From positions 1 through 36,873 of the IMG/VR virus record IMGVR_UViG_3300050821_003459: 36,873 nt of DNA; one strand, given 5' to 3'. Below are positions 3,653 through 36,873 of this stretch, piece after piece. A program made the translations under genes and the position numbers. The stretch comes from a virus. How positions within the stretch are numbered: position 1 is the stretch's first letter; each line of letters begins with the position of its first letter. The notes beneath the pieces are model-generated. The model worked only from the letters and a program-made list of their open reading frames with translations, was not told the origin of the DNA and did not search any database.

Positions 3653-3952
3653 CTAATGTCCAGGCGCAGTCACCGGATGCGCCGTAACCCCCACTTTCGC
3701 TGCGATGCCCGCAATGTCAACGCTCTGCTGATTCACGCTCTGGCGTAGAGCGGATATTTCGCTGGTCTGCGAATCAATTTTTTGCTGGAGTTCGAGAATG
3801 CGGAGGTTGAGTTCTTTTTCCTGTACGGTATCGGTAGGTGGGGTTGGTGTGCGAAGTACTTGCACGCCCATCCCGAGAAGGACGCTCAGGGCGGCTATCG
3901 CCAGCCACTTCCATAGTTCTTGCTTGCCGTTCTTCCCGTTGGGTTCGCTCAT
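3653..3952 (-). CDS. Membrane-anchored coiled-coil protein (spanin-like)
   Basis: The first 13 residues are polar, residues 14-34 form one hydrophobic helix, and residues 43-80 are a coiled coil with leucine, isoleucine and valine at heptad positions. The short Pro/Thr-rich linker after the membrane helix would place the coil outside the inner membrane, the design of i-spanins (Rz-type). No outer-spanin lipoprotein is nested in it; the lipoprotein at 393-944 is a possible but unproven partner. Function is inferred from architecture only. It ends in TAG. Confidence 0.6.
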   Translation of the reverse strand: MSEPNGKNGKQELWKWLAIAALSVLLGMGVQVLRTPTPPTDTVQEKELNLRILELQQKIDSQTSEISALRQSVNQQSVDIAGIAAKVGVTAHPVTAPGH

Positions 3953-7500: not shown

Positions 7501-10500
7501 TTCGCTTGCACCGTGATAAGCCGCGCCACATCCACTGTAGCGCCGTACACACCAACATTTGTGGCGGTATCCGTAGTTCTGGAAATCTTAATCCACAATG
7601 TAGAGCCTGCGATGCAACCTGTTTTCGTCAACCCTGTAAGAGTTGCATTCCACGTCCGGTTTGCGTTGCCATTTAGCGTAATGGTTCCAAATGACTGCGC
7701 CGTGTTAAATGCTACGTCGTCGGTCGTCGAGCCGTCGCCCTTGCCGCAGGATGTAGCCGCCTGCATGATTATCGTGTGGGCATTCGTTGTATCGGTGCTC
7801 GTCAAATCAATCGAAATATCAAGACTCGCCGCCGAGTCCCAATCGTTCGGCAGGTGAACTTTGAAATAGCCAACATCGGACGCACCCCAAGGTGACAACA
7901 GGCCATCTTTATCGTTCGTCCCAGCGCGACAAAGTGCCGCAGGGGTAGCCGCTGTAGACCACGCCGAAGCTGCCGTGGCATTCACGCAGTTCGCAGAAGG
8001 GACGTAAAAGGTTTCTGGGTAATCAATGTAGACACAAGTCTTATTCGCTCCACCGGAAGTACAGACTTGTTTTGCGGCAGCGGCATTTGAAGCGGCAGTC
8101 ACCACATTTGCGGCAACAACGCCAGAATCATTCGCTAGCACGTTGCCGCTTCCAACTGTATAGCCAGCGAGGTCCCCGTTTGTAGGGGTGGCGGCAATTG
8201 CCAATCCAATCGCGTCAGCGTTGTTATCGTAGATATGCCAGTTCTTGTTCGTGGAGTCGTAACAGATCATCGCTGTTGCGCTGGCTGTGCAACCTGCGCC
8301 AGTGGGAATCTTCAAAGTCGCAGCCGAGAAGTCTTGTAGGAACGCCCCATAGGTGTTGGCTTTATCAGTGAACACGGTAGTTGCTGGCAAATCAGCTTCA
8401 CCAGCACTTTGGTATCCCGGAGTCGCCGTTGAACCTGTGTTGTTCATCCAAAATTTGTGTGCGCCTGCCGTTCCAAGCGTTAGCGTAACTGCACCCGTTG
8501 AAGCAGAGTTAGTAATCAACACGCCGTCGCCGGTCAGCGAGGAAACTCCAGCGGATGATGCCCCACAACCAAACGCCCCTGTCGAAGTCGTAAACTGAAG
8601 CGCATTCCCCGCACCTGTGCAATTCGGGAATGCACCAAATTCAGGGACACGGTATGCAATATCGTTAACGCCATCCGAAAAGTGAGGTGCTACCCAGTTT
8701 ATTGGTACTAGCAAAGATGCGCCGCCATTTATGGTGAAGCCGCTGGCGTTCTCAGTGAGCGCTCCAGAAGATGTACCACGATTCCAAAGAATAAATGGCA
8801 TATTAAAACCGAATCCGGTTGTTGAAGGATTAACTAATGTGTAGGTCTGCGCGGCAGAGTTTGTAGCCGTGATGAGCGATGTACGGTCGCTGTAGAGATA
8901 TGTGTACGTTGTCCCTGTTTGCGGATTGATTGGCACGCCGGGAAGCGTGATCGTGGGCGCAACGATAGCGCTCGCTGTGACGTTGTAATTAACGAGATAA
9001 TTTCCGTTCGCAGTAGGTGAGTTCACGCCGCCGAAAGTGCCGCCACCGCCGTTGTACTGAATTGCGTCTGTCGTGCCTCCGGGCGAACCTCCGCCGCCTC
9101 CACCACTACTCCCAGCAAAGCAATCCGTTCCATCGCACCATGCTCTTAGCCCTGAGTTATTGGCGATGATGATGTTCCCAGTCGCCTGATTGCCGTGCAA
9201 TGTGCCGGAATCAATCGAGAGCGTTATCGTTCCGCCAGAGACGTTGAAAATGTCCCAAGTTTGACCACGCAGCGCGTGTTGAAGCGTGAAGGTCAGTGAT
9301 GCTGTTGCCTTGACCGCTCCTTCATTTGCCGTGATCGTGTGATTTGCTGAATAAGCTATGGCCGTTTCGCCCAAGTTTGCTACCGTAATTCCCGGCAGAT
9401 AATTGTTCTGCGTCCCGAAGATGTTGACATTTATATTTTGCCCTATTTGCTGGAGTTGTCCTGCGTTCACGATAGTAGCGTTGTAAAGATTGACACTGCC
9501 GTTGAATGCGTTCCCCGTAATAAGTGGCAAGCCGCCAGAGGGCATGTTGCTGCTGTCGATGTCGATGCTCGCACCAATGCTGTTCGCGTTAGGTGAAAGA
9601 TTCGCAAGCGTCACGTCGCCGGTGTCTATCCATGTATTCCGAAGTGTGATAAATCCGGCTACGTTGCCGCCCAGCACATTTGACAAACTGATGAGTGGCA
9701 TGATGTTCCCTTGAATCTCATGCTTCATATCGAAGGTCATGTCTGCGCCTGTCGCAAGATAGAAAGCGAAGCCACGGCGATTCGCATAGATATTATCGAA
9801 GTTCCACTGCTGGCCGAATTTTGAGACGAAAGCTGGAGTAGCAGTGCTTCCTACTACCTGAGCGGGGCCAGTAGAGAACGTGGAGTTTCTGATATTGCCG
9901 CCAAAGCTGGACGACACGGACGAGGCGTAATCGTAGAATAGAATGGACATATAATCGCCGTTGCCACCGGACACGAACGAGTCGTCCTCAAATATCTGCG
10001 AGCCGTTCTGAAGGGCGTTGAATATGCCGATGCCTCCATTGTTGACCACGTTCAGATAGACCTTGTTGATGGAGCCGCCTTGCTTGAGGAAAAATATCGG
10101 ATTTGCTCCCTGTCCAATGATAGGGATGTGCGGACGAAATCCGAACTGAGCAAGCAGTTCCCTGTTCGATGAACTGTCAGTGCCGTACCACGCGCCGTTG
10201 AACTGAATTGTGTCGGCTGGGCAAATCGTCCCATCCTGATAGACAGTGTTGGCAGTGATGTTTAGATAGGTGCTCGTAACCCAGCAATAAGGCTGCGTGG
10301 CAACGCTCGTCTCAAGCGCCACGGGAAAGCGTATCGTGCCTCCGCCAGCGCCAGAGGTGCCAAAATCGTTTGCTCTTGTCTGTGCGGCCAAGATCGCTGG
10401 CACGTTGTCGAATCGTGTCGCTGACGACGTTACGCTAGTCGTAGCATTATTTGCGAGCGTGAGCGTCGTTCCCGAGATGTTCGTAATTGTTGTGTCGAGC

Positions 10501-12182
10501 GTATCGTTAACTGGCGATGATGGCGGTGTTGTCGGCACCCACCAGGCCGTGACAGGCGCAGCCATCATCGTTGGGCCGTAATCGTCGAATGTGTTGTAAC
10601 TCGCATCGGTGTAGCCGAGGTTGGCGATAAGGCTCATCCCAAGGAATGCCATTGAGCCAGCCGTGCGACCGTACATCAAATACTGTGTCCCATTCGCCCC
10701 AGGCGTCGGCAGAACGACGTGATTGCAAAGCCAGTAATAAAGTGTTCCGCCCGTGGCTGTTGCCGTACTTATTCCACGCGAGGCGTCAACGCCACTGTTA
10801 AAAGTGACGTGAGTTCCGTCTGGTACGGCAAGGACTATCTTCCAACCAGCGAATTCAGCGTCATCCGTTGTGCCTTGTGTTTTGAAGAGGCATCCAGGAG
10901 CAAGATTTGCGCTGGAACCAATTGTTGCCGTGAATGTGTTCAAGATGCCGCTCGCAATACTCGTAATGGCTGTGTTGTTCGCACCAAGCGAAGCGTTGCC
11001 CGTAGATGTTGTCCCATTAGCAGAAGCAACCGTATAACCCTCTCCAACATCGCGCATCGCTGCCGAGTAAGCATAAGGCGTTAAACCCGCTCCAGCAGGT
11101 ACCGTATAGCCCAATCCAGTGAGGTTTGACCCACAGCTTGGCGTCACGGTCGGAACACTGGGAGTTGTCATCGTCTGCGCTGCACCTGCTCCGGCAACCG
11201 CAATGCCCATTCCTTTTGCGAATCCTGTTGCACTCGCTACAGCCAGCGAGTTTGTGCTGCTGCTGATAGTTCCCGTTGTGGCGGGAACGGTGTTTACATT
11301 GACTGGCACAGCACCAAAGGTCGTGATGTCCACGCCCAAATTCGGCCCGGAGAAATGCGGGTCATCAAGACAGTTGAGTGTTGGTGTAACGGTAAGTTCG
11401 GTGCAGTTCGTGTTTGCCAGCGACCCTCCCGTGCCGTATTTTTGCAATGAGTTCACTGGCAGCATGGCAAGATTCGTTAGATTGTTGCTCGCGTTCAGCG
11501 TTAGGCAGACATCCCCAGTGTTCGCGGCGTTGCGCCAGCACACTCCTGACTCGTTATTCGCAAGTCGCAAGGTTCCCGTAGATGCGGACGGACTGGACAA
11601 ACTGATGAAAGGCGCTGTTGCGCTGCCGCCCCCACCGATGCTTGTCCATCCACAAGGCAGGGAACTGCATACTCTGGTTGCGGGGATGCCAGTGTTGAAA
11701 TACTGCTGGCCCAACGTAGCGTTCACTAATTCGTTGTCCGCATAAGCCCTAGTGTTCGGTGGCGGGTTAAACATGCTGATGCGGATACTCGGCGGTGTTG
11801 GAGAGACGGTTTGCGTTGCACCCGTGATCGAAATGCTCTGCACCGTGAAACACGCTGCTGTCGCCAGTGGGCACACAGTTAAGTCCCAACTGCTCCCTGC
11901 TGGTGTTATCGAGGTATTCGATGGAATGCTTACACTGTAGTGTCCAGAACCATCCAGTTGACCGGCAATCGTCTGCGCGGTGGAGAATGGTGCGCCATTC
12001 CAGAAGTACGGCCCGATTGGGTTGGAGGATGCCACACGGAACACAAAACTATAGGTTCCTGCGTACCACTGTTGATTGTCCGGTGTATCCGCGATTGTTC
12101 CACTCACTGTCGTAGACTGCGCGAATATACCAGGAGAAAGTAGAAAGATCAGCACGGCGATAAATGCCAGTTTTCTAATCAA
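7497..12182 (-). CDS. Giant secreted tail-fibre-like protein, 1561 aa
   Basis: This is the largest gene in the window. A signal peptide occupies about residues 1-21 (ending PGIFAQ). The first 150 residues look like an Ig/carboxypeptidase-regulatory-like beta domain. Long stretches of small polar residues and a central beta-helix-like part (about 380-960) follow, then glycine-rich linkers with a GGGGGG-type run near residue 1025. The C-terminal domain is beta-rich (about 1400-1561). This composition is typical of phage fibres and adhesins. It is linked by ATGA overlaps to genes on both sides. Receptor binding is inferred from size, composition and position. Confidence 0.7.
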   Translation of the reverse strand: MIRKLAFIAVLIFLLSPGIFAQSTTVSGTIADTPDNQQWYAGTYSFVFRVASSNPIGPYFWNGAPFSTAQTIAGQLDGSGHYSVSIPSNTSITPAGSSWDLTVCPLATAACFTVQSISITGATQTVSPTPPSIRISMFNPPPNTRAYADNELVNATLGQQYFNTGIPATRVCSSLPCGWTSIGGGGSATAPFISLSSPSASTGTLRLANNESGVCWRNAANTGDVCLTLNASNNLTNLAMLPVNSLQKYGTGGSLANTNCTELTVTPTLNCLDDPHFSGPNLGVDITTFGAVPVNVNTVPATTGTISSSTNSLAVASATGFAKGMGIAVAGAGAAQTMTTPSVPTVTPSCGSNLTGLGYTVPAGAGLTPYAYSAAMRDVGEGYTVASANGTTSTGNASLGANNTAITSIASGILNTFTATIGSSANLAPGCLFKTQGTTDDAEFAGWKIVLAVPDGTHVTFNSGVDASRGISTATATGGTLYYWLCNHVVLPTPGANGTQYLMYGRTAGSMAFLGMSLIANLGYTDASYNTFDDYGPTMMAAPVTAWWVPTTPPSSPVNDTLDTTITNISGTTLTLANNATTSVTSSATRFDNVPAILAAQTRANDFGTSGAGGGTIRFPVALETSVATQPYCWVTSTYLNITANTVYQDGTICPADTIQFNGAWYGTDSSSNRELLAQFGFRPHIPIIGQGANPIFFLKQGGSINKVYLNVVNNGGIGIFNALQNGSQIFEDDSFVSGGNGDYMSILFYDYASSVSSSFGGNIRNSTFSTGPAQVVGSTATPAFVSKFGQQWNFDNIYANRRGFAFYLATGADMTFDMKHEIQGNIMPLISLSNVLGGNVAGFITLRNTWIDTGDVTLANLSPNANSIGASIDIDSSNMPSGGLPLITGNAFNGSVNLYNATIVNAGQLQQIGQNINVNIFGTQNNYLPGITVANLGETAIAYSANHTITANEGAVKATASLTFTLQHALRGQTWDIFNVSGGTITLSIDSGTLHGNQATGNIIIANNSGLRAWCDGTDCFAGSSGGGGGGSPGGTTDAIQYNGGGGTFGGVNSPTANGNYLVNYNVTASAIVAPTITLPGVPINPQTGTTYTYLYSDRTSLITATNSAAQTYTLVNPSTTGFGFNMPFILWNRGTSSGALTENASGFTINGGASLLVPINWVAPHFSDGVNDIAYRVPEFGAFPNCTGAGNALQFTTSTGAFGCGASSAGVSSLTGDGVLITNSASTGAVTLTLGTAGAHKFWMNNTGSTATPGYQSAGEADLPATTVFTDKANTYGAFLQDFSAATLKIPTGAGCTASATAMICYDSTNKNWHIYDNNADAIGLAIAATPTNGDLAGYTVGSGNVLANDSGVVAANVVTAASNAAAAKQVCTSGGANKTCVYIDYPETFYVPSANCVNATAASAWSTAATPAALCRAGTNDKDGLLSPWGASDVGYFKVHLPNDWDSAASLDISIDLTSTDTTNAHTIIMQAATSCGKGDGSTTDDVAFNTAQSFGTITLNGNANRTWNATLTGLTKTGCIAGSTLWIKISRTTDTATNVGVYGATVDVARLITVQAN

Positions 12183-34887: not shown

Positions 34888-35379
34888 ATGTTATGGCGAC
34901 TTTCAGACCGTGGCGACCCTTCGGCGTGCAAAATCGCTGACCGCCACTACAATCGTCAGAAACCGGGAACTCCTCAGTTCGTTCCACCGGGAAGATGTTT
35001 TGTATTGTTAACCGAAGATTTAACTTGTCTGTGGGTAACTTCGTGGCCATTCGCTCAATTTGTAAAGCATGAATGGGCTGGCGCTTGGGTAAATTCTCTT
35101 TTTCGCCGTGAAGGTGGGGAAAAAGCAAGCATACTTATTCGCGATGCTATTGCGGCGACTCGTTGGTTTTACGGCGACCCACCAGAATTGGGAATGGTCA
35201 CATTTATTGATCGAGAAAAAGTTCGCCCACGCCGAGCGGGTTACGGAAAATGTTATCTCGCAGCTGGCTTTGAAGTGGCCGGGGAAACGAAAGGTGGGTT
35301 ACTTGCACTTAGGATGAGGCCGGAAGTTATGCCGCCAGCGGAGAAACCGCTGATGGGTTGTGACAAATTTTTTACTTGA
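34888..35379 (+). CDS. Conserved phage protein, possibly acetyltransferase-like
   Basis: The 163-residue protein opens MLWRLSDRGDPSACKIADRH and continues to RQKPGTPQFVPPGRCFVLL, a start known to me from phage and prophage proteins with a weak GNAT-like pattern. The middle has beta strands and a Trp-rich stretch, and near the end RAGYGKCYLAAGFEVAGE resembles the GNAT 'GYGK.y...GF' site. It is a hypothesis, not a firm assignment. It may modify host proteins or nucleotides. Ends in TGA, which overlaps a possible promoter. Confidence 0.5.
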   Translation: MLWRLSDRGDPSACKIADRHYNRQKPGTPQFVPPGRCFVLLTEDLTCLWVTSWPFAQFVKHEWAGAWVNSLFRREGGEKASILIRDAIAATRWFYGDPPELGMVTFIDREKVRPRRAGYGKCYLAAGFEVAGETKGGLLALRMRPEVMPPAEKPLMGCDKFFT

Positions 35380-35406
35380 CACGGAAGGGGGTGTGGCAGA
35401 AACTAT
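35376..35406 (+). promoter_or_regulatory. Promoter candidate before the amber-interrupted gene
   Basis: TTGACA (35376-35381) and a weak -10 AACTAT (35401-35406), 19 bases apart, end six bases before the ATG at 35412. If used, transcription would start close to that ATG, so the message would be nearly leaderless, which would explain the lack of a good ribosome site. It would drive the PTH2-like gene and the three tRNA-like elements. Confidence 0.35.
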
Positions 35407-35411
35407 GCGAC

Positions 35412-35849
35412 ATGAAACCCGAACGGTAGATTCCAACCGAACCTTACGTTTACGTTTTTGTCCGCACCGACCTTCCTATTCAGCATCAAATAGTTCAATC
35501 CCTCCACGCTGTTTATCATCTCGCTGGCCTTCGCTGCGAGCAAGGCACGCCTAACATCGTGCTCATCGGCCTTCCCAACATCAAATCACTTCGACGCGCC
35601 GAGAGAAAGTTAGAGGCAGCGAACATTCCTCACTACTCATGGTCCGAACCGGACAACGATTGGGGATTGACTTCGATTGCTACGGCTCCGCTCGTTGGCG
35701 ATCAGCGAAGGGTTCTGGCCGATTATCGAATTTACTCCGCTCCTGTAGCTCAAAATATAGAGCGCCCGACCCTAAATCGGGAGGATGTTGGTGAAATCCC
35801 AACTGGGAGCGCCAAGTTTATGCACGCCGAGTCGGAGGCATCTGACTGA
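35412..35849 (+). CDS. Peptidyl-tRNA-hydrolase-II-like gene with in-frame amber codon
   Basis: From ATG 35412 the frame reads MKPER, then TAG (35427-35429), then IPTEPYVYVFVRTDLP and VQSLHAVYHLAG, matching the PTH2 pattern of a first strand VVRxDL followed by an AAQ/VQ-x-x-HA helix (His32). A strand VLIGLPN and an ALAVxx-type region near 100-110 follow. PTH2 releases peptides from stalled tRNA. After the TAG the first usual start is GTG 35559, which would remove the catalytic helix. Thus either the TAG is read through, or the gene is broken. The last 37 codons coincide with a tRNA gene. Length 145 residues, near PTH2 size (about 115-130) apart from that tail. Confidence 0.6.
35739..35814 (+). 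tRNA. tRNA with CUA (amber) anticodon, C33
   Basis: A complete cloverleaf of 76 bases. The acceptor GCTCCTG pairs with TGGGAGC (last two pairs are G-T), the D stem is GCTC/GAGC, and the anticodon stem is CCCGA/TCGGG with loop CCCTAAA. The T stem is GTTGG/CCAAC, the variable loop has five bases, the discriminator is G, and CCA is encoded. The anticodon at 35772-35774 is CTA, so it could read UAG. Position 33, nearly always U, is C (35771), which may weaken decoding. The element lies wholly inside the 3' end of the PTH2-like reading frame. Confidence 0.8.
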
Positions 35850-35873
35850 CCTTGAGTGGTGCGGCGTGCTCCA
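35822..35873 (+). other. 52-base tRNA-like element lacking a D arm
   Basis: A perfect 7-pair acceptor stem (GCACGCC at 35822-35828 with GGCGTGC at 35863-35869) is followed by T and CCA. Inside are a six-pair hairpin (35830-35835 with 35842-35847) and a short T-arm-like ACC/GGT hairpin. There is no D arm and no readable anticodon in a 7-base loop. It is placed seven bases after one tRNA and four before the next. It could be a processed tRNA mimic, or a deletion remnant. Confidence 0.5.
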
Positions 35874-35877
35874 GTTT

Positions 35878-35983
35878 GCGCCTGTAGCTCAGCGGGAGAG
35901 CAACGGTCTCTAAAACCGTCCTCGAATAGAGCAGCAGGTATTTAACCTGTTGGTCGCGGGTTCAATTCCCGCCAGGCGCTCCA
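35878..35983 (+). tRNA. 106-base tRNA with two anticodon-like arms (CUA, UUU)
   Basis: The acceptor GCGCCTG/CAGGCGC is perfect, with T73 and encoded CCA. The D stem is GCTC/GAGC. The first anticodon arm is ACGGT-CTCTAAA-ACCGT, with U33 present and anticodon CTA (35910-35912). Then comes CCTCGAATAGAGCA and a second arm GCAGG-TATTTAA-CCTGT with TTT at 35941-35943 in the anticodon position, TGGTC, and the T arm GCGGG-TTCAATT-CCCGC. Removing one arm gives a normal-sized tRNA either way. It looks like a fusion of the 5' part of an amber-reading tRNA to the 3' part of a tRNA-Lys-like gene. A long variable arm or an intron are other readings. Confidence 0.75.
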
Positions 35984-36051
35984 GTTTTTAACTTGTATTT
36001 CATCTCAGTTTTGGCACACTATTAACACTTCCGAGTGCTGTCAATCCACCG

Positions 36052-36078
36052 GGGCGTGGAGCCGCGAACTTCACGCCC
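36052..36078 (+). repeat. Inverted repeat GGGCGTG/CACGCCC
   Basis: A 7-base perfect stem with 13-base loop between the tRNA group and the winged-helix gene. There is no T-run, so it is not a standard terminator. It may shape the leader of the next gene, whose ribosome site (GGAGG) can pair with CCCT at 36081-36084. Confidence 0.35.
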
Positions 36079-36098
36079 TACCCTTTCGCGGAGGGGAA

Positions 36099-36791
36099 TT
36101 GCGGAAGTCTCACGACATCGGGCTAAAGCCCGGAATTTTAGATCGTAAACATATCGACGCTATGGGAATGTCTGTCTGGTTGTACGCCTGGATTATTCTC
36201 CATCAAACACAAACAACTGGATTCGTTCACGGCGGAGCCGTTATCACCTACGCGCTCATCCAAGAGGAACTCGATGTCCCATGCCGAACGCTACGTAGAT
36301 GGATGAAAACTCTTCAACGCGGTGGATACATCGAAGTCACCTACTCAGCTTACAAGCGAATGCGAATCAGGGTTGAAAAATCTAAAAAATTCAACCACCG
36401 CCAGCACGCAATCCAGTTCCCCGAATCCATAAGGGCCAATAGTGGCCGTTATATCCGGCCAGATGTGGCCCAAGGTGCGGCCAGAAATGGCCCATTCAAT
36501 AAGAGTTCTAAAGAGAGTTCTATAGAACCTTATAAAGCGGAGGAGGCCGCTGCCGCATTTTCCTGTATTGGGTTCGATGAACCGTTCGGACAACCCCCTT
36601 TCCAGAAAGTATTCCTAGAGAGGATGGCCAAAAGGAACGGAGACTGGCTCACTATGACGATGGAAGCCACGATCCAAGAGTGCCAGAGAAAGAAAATAGG
36701 TATACCCCCACAGTTTTACTCAGCAAAAAGGTCTGTAGAGTCCTTAGAGAACGCCGAAGCAGCCGCCAAGTATAAGAGAACCCCCCTGTAG
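36099..36791 (+). CDS. Winged-helix DNA-binding protein, replication-initiator-like
   Basis: TTG start with GGAGGGG just upstream. The first 80 residues form a helical part (KPGILDRKHIDAMGMSVWLYA) and a winged helix (residues about 49-80: ITYALIQEEL, CRTLRRWMKTLQRGGYIEV). This matches the start of phage replication-organiser-like proteins. A polar linker (100-150) and a helical C-terminus follow. It probably binds origin or operator DNA; no helicase or primase motif is seen. It ends with TAG, and the frame after it continues with only TAG stops to the window end. Confidence 0.65.
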   Translation: MRKSHDIGLKPGILDRKHIDAMGMSVWLYAWIILHQTQTTGFVHGGAVITYALIQEELDVPCRTLRRWMKTLQRGGYIEVTYSAYKRMRIRVEKSKKFNHRQHAIQFPESIRANSGRYIRPDVAQGAARNGPFNKSSKESSIEPYKAEEAAAAFSCIGFDEPFGQPPFQKVFLERMAKRNGDWLTMTMEATIQECQRKKIGIPPQFYSAKRSVESLENAEAAAKYKRTPL

Positions 36792-36873
36792 TTATAGATA
36801 TATAAACAATCCTCGCAACAGGTAATATAGAGTGTTATCAAATACGCCAATAGATAGTACCGGGTTAAAAATT
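36792..36873 (+). other. Gene-free edge with TAG-only open frame
   Basis: The last 82 bases hold no standard gene. In the frame of the winged-helix gene they contain TAG at 36795, 36828 and 36855 but no TAA or TGA. If TAG were read as an amino acid the protein would run out of the window. The stretch is AT-rich. Nothing else is visible. Confidence 0.4.

Follow-up and report, generated by a model that had tools for sequence, protein, structure and literature searches.

In prfB, the gene for release factor RF2, an in-frame UGA serves autoregulation by frameshift. In the pyrrolysine system, a dedicated CUA tRNA decodes UAG in specific genes, and UAG also stops translation in the same genomes. 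In phages with code 15 or a related stop-codon reassignment, among them the crAss-like and Lak phages, it is likewise a phage CUA or UCA tRNA that reads the stop codon, and a function in timing control has been proposed for it. The same principle has been engineered in a synthetic 'leak dampener', in which an amber-containing gene and a co-expressed suppressor tRNA form a coherent feed-forward loop (PMC7969014). Peptidyl-tRNA hydrolases of the archaeal/eukaryal type (PTH2), on the other side, are known from jumbo phages and have been proposed to act in ribosome rescue (PMC7824862); peptidyl-tRNA drop-off during early elongation is frequent and is cleared by PTH (PMC10192219). Both elements have also been reported from individual phages: the authors describing XacN1 noted two CUA tRNAs whose target genes were not identifiable (PMC5852040), and the Atu_ph07 report noted a UCA tRNA and PTH genes and did not link them. 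While phage PTH2 and phage suppressor tRNAs are already known, their pairing is apparently undescribed, as we found no account of it in the open literature (preprints and most subscription papers were outside the scope of this search).

Here, we analyze a virus record of 36,873 bases from IMG/VR (IMGVR_UViG_3300050821_003459), in the following referred to as the window. An earlier note had pointed to a PTH2-like gene with an in-frame TAG, and the start, TAG and terminal stop codon of this gene are all found where it had placed them (Table 1). The PTH2 gene appears to be locked by the early stop and opened by a phage-made tRNA, and this seems to apply to many unrelated phages; very probably, the window holds one copy of a PTH2(-HD) module that is widespread in phages and gated by an early stop and the phage's own suppressor tRNA. 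What carries this reading at the sequence level is that the early stop is kept across diverged phages, that it comes with a matching tRNA, that stop and anticodon vary together, that the pattern is specific to this module and that a purine follows the stop.

Table 1. Features of the PTH2 locus, in window coordinates
Feature	Position	Strand	Details
PTH2-like gene	35412..35849	+	ATG 35412-35414, in-frame TAG at codon 6, TGA 35847-35849
Early amber codon, conserved	35427..35429	+	next base A (TAG ATT)
Putative suppressor tRNA 1, anticodon CUA	35739..35814	+	loop CCCUAAA, C33, CCA encoded; Rfam RF00005 51.3 bits
tRNA-like three-way-junction element, conserved	35822..35873	+	8-bp acceptor stem, 7-bp hairpin (GGCA loop), 3-bp hairpin (UUGAGU loop), UCCA end
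Putative suppressor tRNA 2, anticodon CUA	35878..35983	+	arm ACGGU-CUCUAAA-ACCGU, CCA encoded; Rfam 61.7 bits

The reading frame opens with ATG AAA CCC GAA CGG TAG ATT CCA ACC GAA CCT TAC GTT TAC GTT TTT. Its PTH2 domain ends at about 35738, from where the frame continues across tRNA 1, which overlaps its 3' end, into the tRNA-like element, within which its TGA is located; tRNA 2 lies downstream. The ATG lacks a well-placed Shine-Dalgarno sequence, which counts against the early stop being a lock.

The assignment to PTH2 was made through relatives. Queried alone, the window protein gave no match to Pfam PF01981 and none in a scan of IMG/VR, but tblastn retrieved relatives in large phages. Ten of the 26 aligned relatives match PF01981, and the proteins of LR756511 and XacN1 exceed its cut-off. 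An AlphaFold model based on the alignment of 26 sequences reached a pLDDT of 91.4, and its top Foldseek matches in the PDB are all PTH2 (1xty, 2zv3 and 1q7s, with E values of 2.5e-5 to about 1e-4). The model confirms the PTH2 fold of the window protein, for which hydrolase activity is predicted. In the terminase relatives L002-L009, the sequence examined contains neither a PTH2 gene nor a tRNA, so that the module is to be regarded as accessory in this phage group.

To follow the early stop beyond the window, we collected homologues from IMG/VR and from isolate phages, clustered them at 90% identity and assigned the resulting 63 clusters to classes by hand. In 46 of them, a start codon is followed by zero to six further codons, a TAG and the PTH2 domain, which may also be part of an HD-PTH2 fusion; among the remainder, one has an early TGA, none a TAA, three are mycobacteriophages with start-TAG-GTG, and 13 are without such a stop in PTH2. 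Of the 49 clusters for which the position was counted, 34 have the stop at codon 3 or 4. Eight genomes of isolate or metagenomic phages show a homologue in which ATG is followed by one or two codons, TAG and the domain, namely ATG CTG TAG in Arash, ATG ACT TAG in ME3, ATG GCA CAA TAG in GAP32 and CBB, ATG ACG CAC TAG in SNUABM19, ATG GCT CAC TAG in Kaldavass and XbC2, and ATG ACT CAC TAG in LR756511. Scans of IMG/VR carry the pattern into very diverged PTH2 subfamilies, and a replicate scan with another subfamily added 15 early-TAG clusters and four loci without the stop (counted by eye). A scan of 84,980 prokaryote genomes with a narrow pattern yielded no cellular homologue. The search of related contigs proposed in the earlier note therefore found the TAG kept in dozens of diverged phages, and the outcome was the opposite of what that note had named as refuting its proposal, namely related phages in which the codon is a sense codon and suppressor tRNAs are absent.

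This conservation also bears on the notion that the stop is a mark of neutral decay or an assembly error, and the genes pseudogenes. Annotators have indeed skipped or truncated these genes, and several phage records show no gene at PTH2 or a later start within the domain. However, the same stop position recurs in dozens of independent assemblies and in sequenced isolates, with the domain intact and conserved, which refutes this explanation and makes it next to impossible.

A further possibility is that the start and stop delimit a short leader ORF (ATG-x-TAG), with PTH2 re-initiating behind the stop at a non-standard codon such as AUU, and that the tRNAs are unrelated to it. In the PTH2 frame of the window, no ATG, GTG or TTG occurs from the TAG up to the conserved YVFVRTDLP motif. 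In favor of re-initiation, the codon after the stop is ATT, ATC or ATA, isoleucine codons that rarely initiate, in 24 of 49 clusters, ATG in one (L075) and GTG in the three mycobacteriophages Myrna, ScoobyDoobyDoo and HyRo. In these three, the GTG fits the Shine-Dalgarno spacing better, and their PTH2 may not need suppression. Elsewhere, however, the stop is also followed by AAC, AAT, ACC, ACT, GTT or GTA, which are not usual starts, and a leader ORF predicts no pairing with suppressor tRNAs.

Such tRNAs are present in the window. The claim that two tRNAs there can display CUA holds: Rfam calls both (35739-35811 and 35878-35980), with a cloverleaf and CUA in the anticodon loop of each. A related contig, L088, carries a tRNA in the same place as tRNA 1 (10301-10376) and a positional counterpart of tRNA 2 (10441-10515). 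ARAGORN in default mode called neither window CUA tRNA, probably because tRNA 1 has C33 and tRNA 2 about 32 extra nucleotides, which fold as a second hairpin at the place of the variable loop; at low stringency, it returned only noise. CUA tRNAs with C33 or inserts that ARAGORN missed were detected instead with Rfam, with a covariance model or with a custom script. ARAGORN's alternative for tRNA 2, an intron-bearing UUA tRNA, was set aside, since the Rfam fit with the CUA arm is better. The C33 of tRNA 1 and the extra arm of tRNA 2 are oddities that speak against suppressor function. From the sequences, we infer that the CUA tRNAs of the window and its relatives are made, charged and able to read the early stop.

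Overall, the examined sequence contains a CUA tRNA in 38 of the 46 early-TAG clusters, a count that includes L068 (C33 loop), L090 (elsewhere in the genome), L146, L147 (long D-loop insert) and L150. The eight clusters for which none was found are mostly fragments, but two of them are long, the 635-kb LR745206 and the 332-kb genome of L163, and none was seen among the tRNAs read there. In the tRNA-rich regions of Arash, GAP32, ME3, SNUABM19, CBB, Kaldavass, XbC2 and LR756511, ARAGORN finds exactly one CUA tRNA per genome, in most cases no more than a few kb from PTH2. Conversely, no CUA tRNA was found in nine clusters without the early stop (RaK2, Hallingskeid, Mx1, LR745208, L073, L100, L145, S-CBWM1 and Lak-A1, the last two scanned for tRNAs over short stretches only). 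XacN1 and RAS14 first seemed to be exceptions, having CUA tRNAs and no TAG beside the domain; read after the fact, their longer HD-PTH2 ORF starts with ATG AAG TAG. One counterexample stands, L265, with a CUA tRNA and a PTH2 without early stop. Fisher tests on the cluster counts took the clusters as independent and, as the phages are related, their P values are descriptive.

The tRNA bodies themselves are not conserved. Acceptor stems and discriminator bases differ widely among the 47 distinct CUA tRNA sequences of the relatives, so that it is the anticodon, rather than one tRNA lineage, that is kept, and the unrelated bodies point to repeated recruitment. Where the stop changes, the anticodon changes with it: the PTH2 of L086 starts with ATG GAA TCG TGA, a UCA tRNA is located about 200 bp upstream of it, and no CUA tRNA turned up. 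In L162 and L166, it is the HD gene rather than PTH2 that contains the early stop, a TGA, and both genomes encode UCA tRNAs; in L099, an internal TGA is accompanied by two tRNAs of this kind. The four clusters that use TGA in PTH2 or in the neighboring HD gene thus all have UCA tRNAs in their genomes. This switch from TAG to TGA in step with the anticodon, together with internal TAGs at conserved sites of the HD gene, argues against re-initiation behind a leader ORF, which we regard as improbable.

The HD gene came to light in a search with HD-PTH2 fusions, in which nearly every locus had an HD gene no more than about 1 kb from a PTH2 domain. It often itself carries an early TAG (e.g. L163, L165, L176 and L214) or an internal one at a conserved site, as in the GAP32 family (ELDTG-TAG-GDPV, annotated there as two ORFs) and in L076 and L078 (DLPP-TAG). 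Pfam support for the HD identity is weak, and neither the window nor its nearest relatives showed an HD gene. The target of the control is the PTH2-HD two-gene module rather than the window locus alone. The arrangement highlighted in the earlier note, with tRNAs inside and after the gene that needs them, is found in the window, but not in most relatives, where the tRNA lies near the gene and not within it.

The pattern is specific to this module. TAG ends ordinary ORFs in the window, as reading the sequence at 3653, 14368, 17750, 22824 and 25602 confirmed, and window ORFs of at least 80 aa end in TGA (29), TAA (9) or TAG (8). In the relatives, too, it ends ordinary genes, mostly with short extensions behind it. 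When we counted early-stop ORFs, defined by a Shine-Dalgarno sequence, a start, zero to six codons, a stop and a long ORF with no other start nearby, PTH2 contributed 21 with TAG and none with TAA or TGA, whereas all other genes contributed 12, 14 and 12, respectively, and thus no excess of early TAGs. The base behind the early PTH2 stops is a purine in 48 of 49 cases (37 A, 11 G; the remaining one is C), compared to 75 of 148 for ordinary TAG stops at the same loci. A purine after the stop is known to favor suppression over termination. For +4U, a strengthening of termination has been described (PMC5289835).

These data also speak to a genome-wide reassignment of TAG (code 15), in which the PTH2 TAG would be one of many. 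Code-15 phages that encode CUA tRNAs are well known (PMC11210395, PMC9523058), the window encodes two such tRNAs, and LR756501 has a second TAG within PTH2 and may be recoded genome-wide. However, TAG is not a sense codon throughout the window; here and in the relatives it ends ordinary ORFs with extensions of normal length behind it, and early TAGs are not in excess outside PTH2. Code 15 is therefore refuted for the window and most relatives and very unlikely as a general explanation, although it may hold for some huge phages. With the early TAG conserved, cognate tRNAs at hand and TAG otherwise a normal stop, the sequences strongly support the proposal of a selective read-through instead of a genome-wide code change.

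This read-through could not be extended to the DnaD-like gene of the window, for which it had also been suggested. Its frame is indeed open past the TAG at 36789, but over just 27 codons to the contig end, with three further TAGs and no TAA or TGA; the probability of encountering neither over this length is (62/64)^27 = 0.43, so that the extension is at chance level. A homologue was found only in L005, and it does not support read-through either.

The third, tRNA-like element of the locus folds with a z score of -3.2 and is present in all six contigs of the clade (the window, L088, L094, L096, L140 and L141), where it adjoins PTH2 and the CUA tRNAs and measures 44-53 nt. Its stems vary in sequence among these contigs and keep their pairing; the consensus fold comprises an acceptor-like stem with an NCCA end and two hairpins, one with a tetraloop and one of 3 bp whose loop is UURA[AGU]U. 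It has no match to tmRNA or any other tRNA-like family in Rfam, and a descriptor of it found no further copy on both strands of the 5.2 Mb of sequence examined. The CCA-ended element described in the earlier note is therefore real and recurs in all five relatives from the clade that were examined, but as its fold contains no anticodon arm, it is probably not a suppressor. We consider it a separate candidate RNA family, which might signal processing by RNase P or act as a decoy that can be aminoacylated.

How might such a locus work? The early stop, one to seven codons after the start, would keep PTH2 off until a phage suppressor tRNA reads it (CUA for UAG, UCA for UGA). PTH2 would then be made only after expression of the phage tRNA and in proportion to the activity of the suppressor relative to RF1. 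As the suppressor would compete with RF1, it would also cause read-through of normal stops and more stalled or dropped peptidyl-tRNA, so that the capacity for peptidyl-tRNA recycling would rise with suppressor-caused read-through and early drop-off, while the dependence of PTH2 on the suppressor would prevent leaky expression. As the tRNA is embedded in the 3' end of the PTH2 frame in the window and its nearest relatives, its excision there would remove the PTH2 stop codon; a single transcript could then yield either the tRNA or the complete PTH2 message.

The purpose is most likely such a feed-forward lock, although we infer this with less certainty than the lock itself. The same lock could serve another end if PTH2-HD were a toxic or conflict gene, for instance one acting on host tRNAs, that is expressed only with the phage's own key tRNA. 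PTH2 and its HD partner do form a conserved two-gene module, and for the PTH2 of jumbo phages, a role in conflicts involving tRNA damage has been proposed (PMC7824862). Toxicity and feed-forward rescue fit the same sequence facts equally well and are not separable here; we consider toxicity possible, but rather unlikely. Going further, we lean slightly toward a circuit that evolved repeatedly, in which many lineages re-recruited tRNAs as cognate suppressors, with amber and opal switching together, in which the suppressors of standard-code phages exist mainly to license PTH2-HD, and to which the clade of the window added tRNA excision and a new tRNA-like RNA.

Our results offer a specific target for unexplained phage suppressor tRNAs, such as the HD-PTH2 ORF of XacN1 with its TAG at codon 3, and predict the correct starts of many phage PTH2 and HD genes that are unannotated or truncated. 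The lock can be tested directly in the culturable phages HyRo, ScoobyDoobyDoo, Arash and pT24.

In relation to the known systems, the jumbo-phage PTH2 proteins belong to the same family, but we did not find the early stop and its pairing with a tRNA described for them (PMC7824862). Unlike in code-15 phages, TAG is still a normal stop here, a single module is targeted at codons 2-8, and the tRNA bodies are diverse. The pyrrolysine system relies on one special tRNA and its synthetase, whereas the bodies of the phage CUA tRNAs resemble those of ordinary class I tRNAs, and the label 'tRNA-Pyl' given to them by ARAGORN reflects the anticodon only. The likeness to prfB is that an early in-frame stop in the gene for a translation factor senses the termination machinery; prfB, however, uses a frameshift, has no tRNA partner and encodes a release factor. 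The engineered leak dampener follows the same logic as the proposed PTH2 lock (PMC7969014) and, if our reading is true, the phage module would be its natural counterpart, a suppressor-tRNA feed-forward circuit that gates one gene and not the code.

Early TAG codons are found at PTH2, the peptidyl-tRNA hydrolase-like gene, in several isolate phages. In Myrna, ScoobyDoobyDoo and HyRo, it starts GTG/ATG-TAG-GTG with a CUA tRNA nearby, which in Myrna is annotated as tRNA-Ser. In the GAP32 family (homologous loci L011, L014 and L065-L072), the HD-domain gene has an internal TAG, at ELDTG-TAG-GDPV, which breaks this single gene up into a pair of annotated ORFs (GAP32_398 and GAP32_399). On the + strand of another homologous contig, L091, we observed a second candidate early-amber gene, which opens with ATG ACA TAG GAC GTT AAG and continues for 157 codons; the 76 codons behind this opening contain no start codon, and the genome encodes three CUA tRNAs. 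A different arrangement is seen in contig L073 (9970-10020), where ATG...CAG TAG G precedes PTH2 and the domain is encoded in frame +1, as would fit a reading of TAGG in one step; no CUA tRNA was found among the tRNAs read there.

Several CUA tRNAs carry C33 (loop CCCUAAA), namely those at window 35739-35814, in locus L012 and at L068 13841-13912, and standard ARAGORN overlooks the first and last of these. The CUA tRNA of locus L219 (G014:124111-124238) has a D-loop insert of about 50 nt, and the second window tRNA also contains extra sequence, an insert of about 32 nt. Next to PTH2 and the CUA tRNAs, six loci share a new, conserved tRNA-like three-way-junction RNA that is absent from Rfam. 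The gene directly upstream of PTH2 in the window has relatives in phages of Salinibacter, Micromonospora and Paenibacillus.

Features at PTH2 loci of the window and its relatives
Feature	Locus	Position	Remark
HD-PTH2 fusion ORF	L019 (XacN1)	943-1803	begins ATG AAG TAG
HD-PTH2 fusion ORF	L021 (RAS14)	943-1803	begins ATG AAG TAG
Three-way-junction RNA	window	35822-35873	
Three-way-junction RNA	L088	10378-10429	
Three-way-junction RNA	L094	10381-10430	
Three-way-junction RNA	L096	7643-7687	
Three-way-junction RNA	L140	2839-2882	
Three-way-junction RNA	L141	6474-6526	
CUA-loop tRNA-like sequence beside PTH2	L094	10303-10373	uncalled by ARAGORN
CUA-loop tRNA-like sequence beside PTH2	L141	6300-6380	uncalled by ARAGORN
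Gene directly upstream of PTH2, 163 aa	window	34888-35379	PHROG 24928

In XacN1 and RAS14, HD and PTH2 are fused behind an early TAG, which in XacN1 is a possible target for CUA tRNAs that have so far been unexplained.
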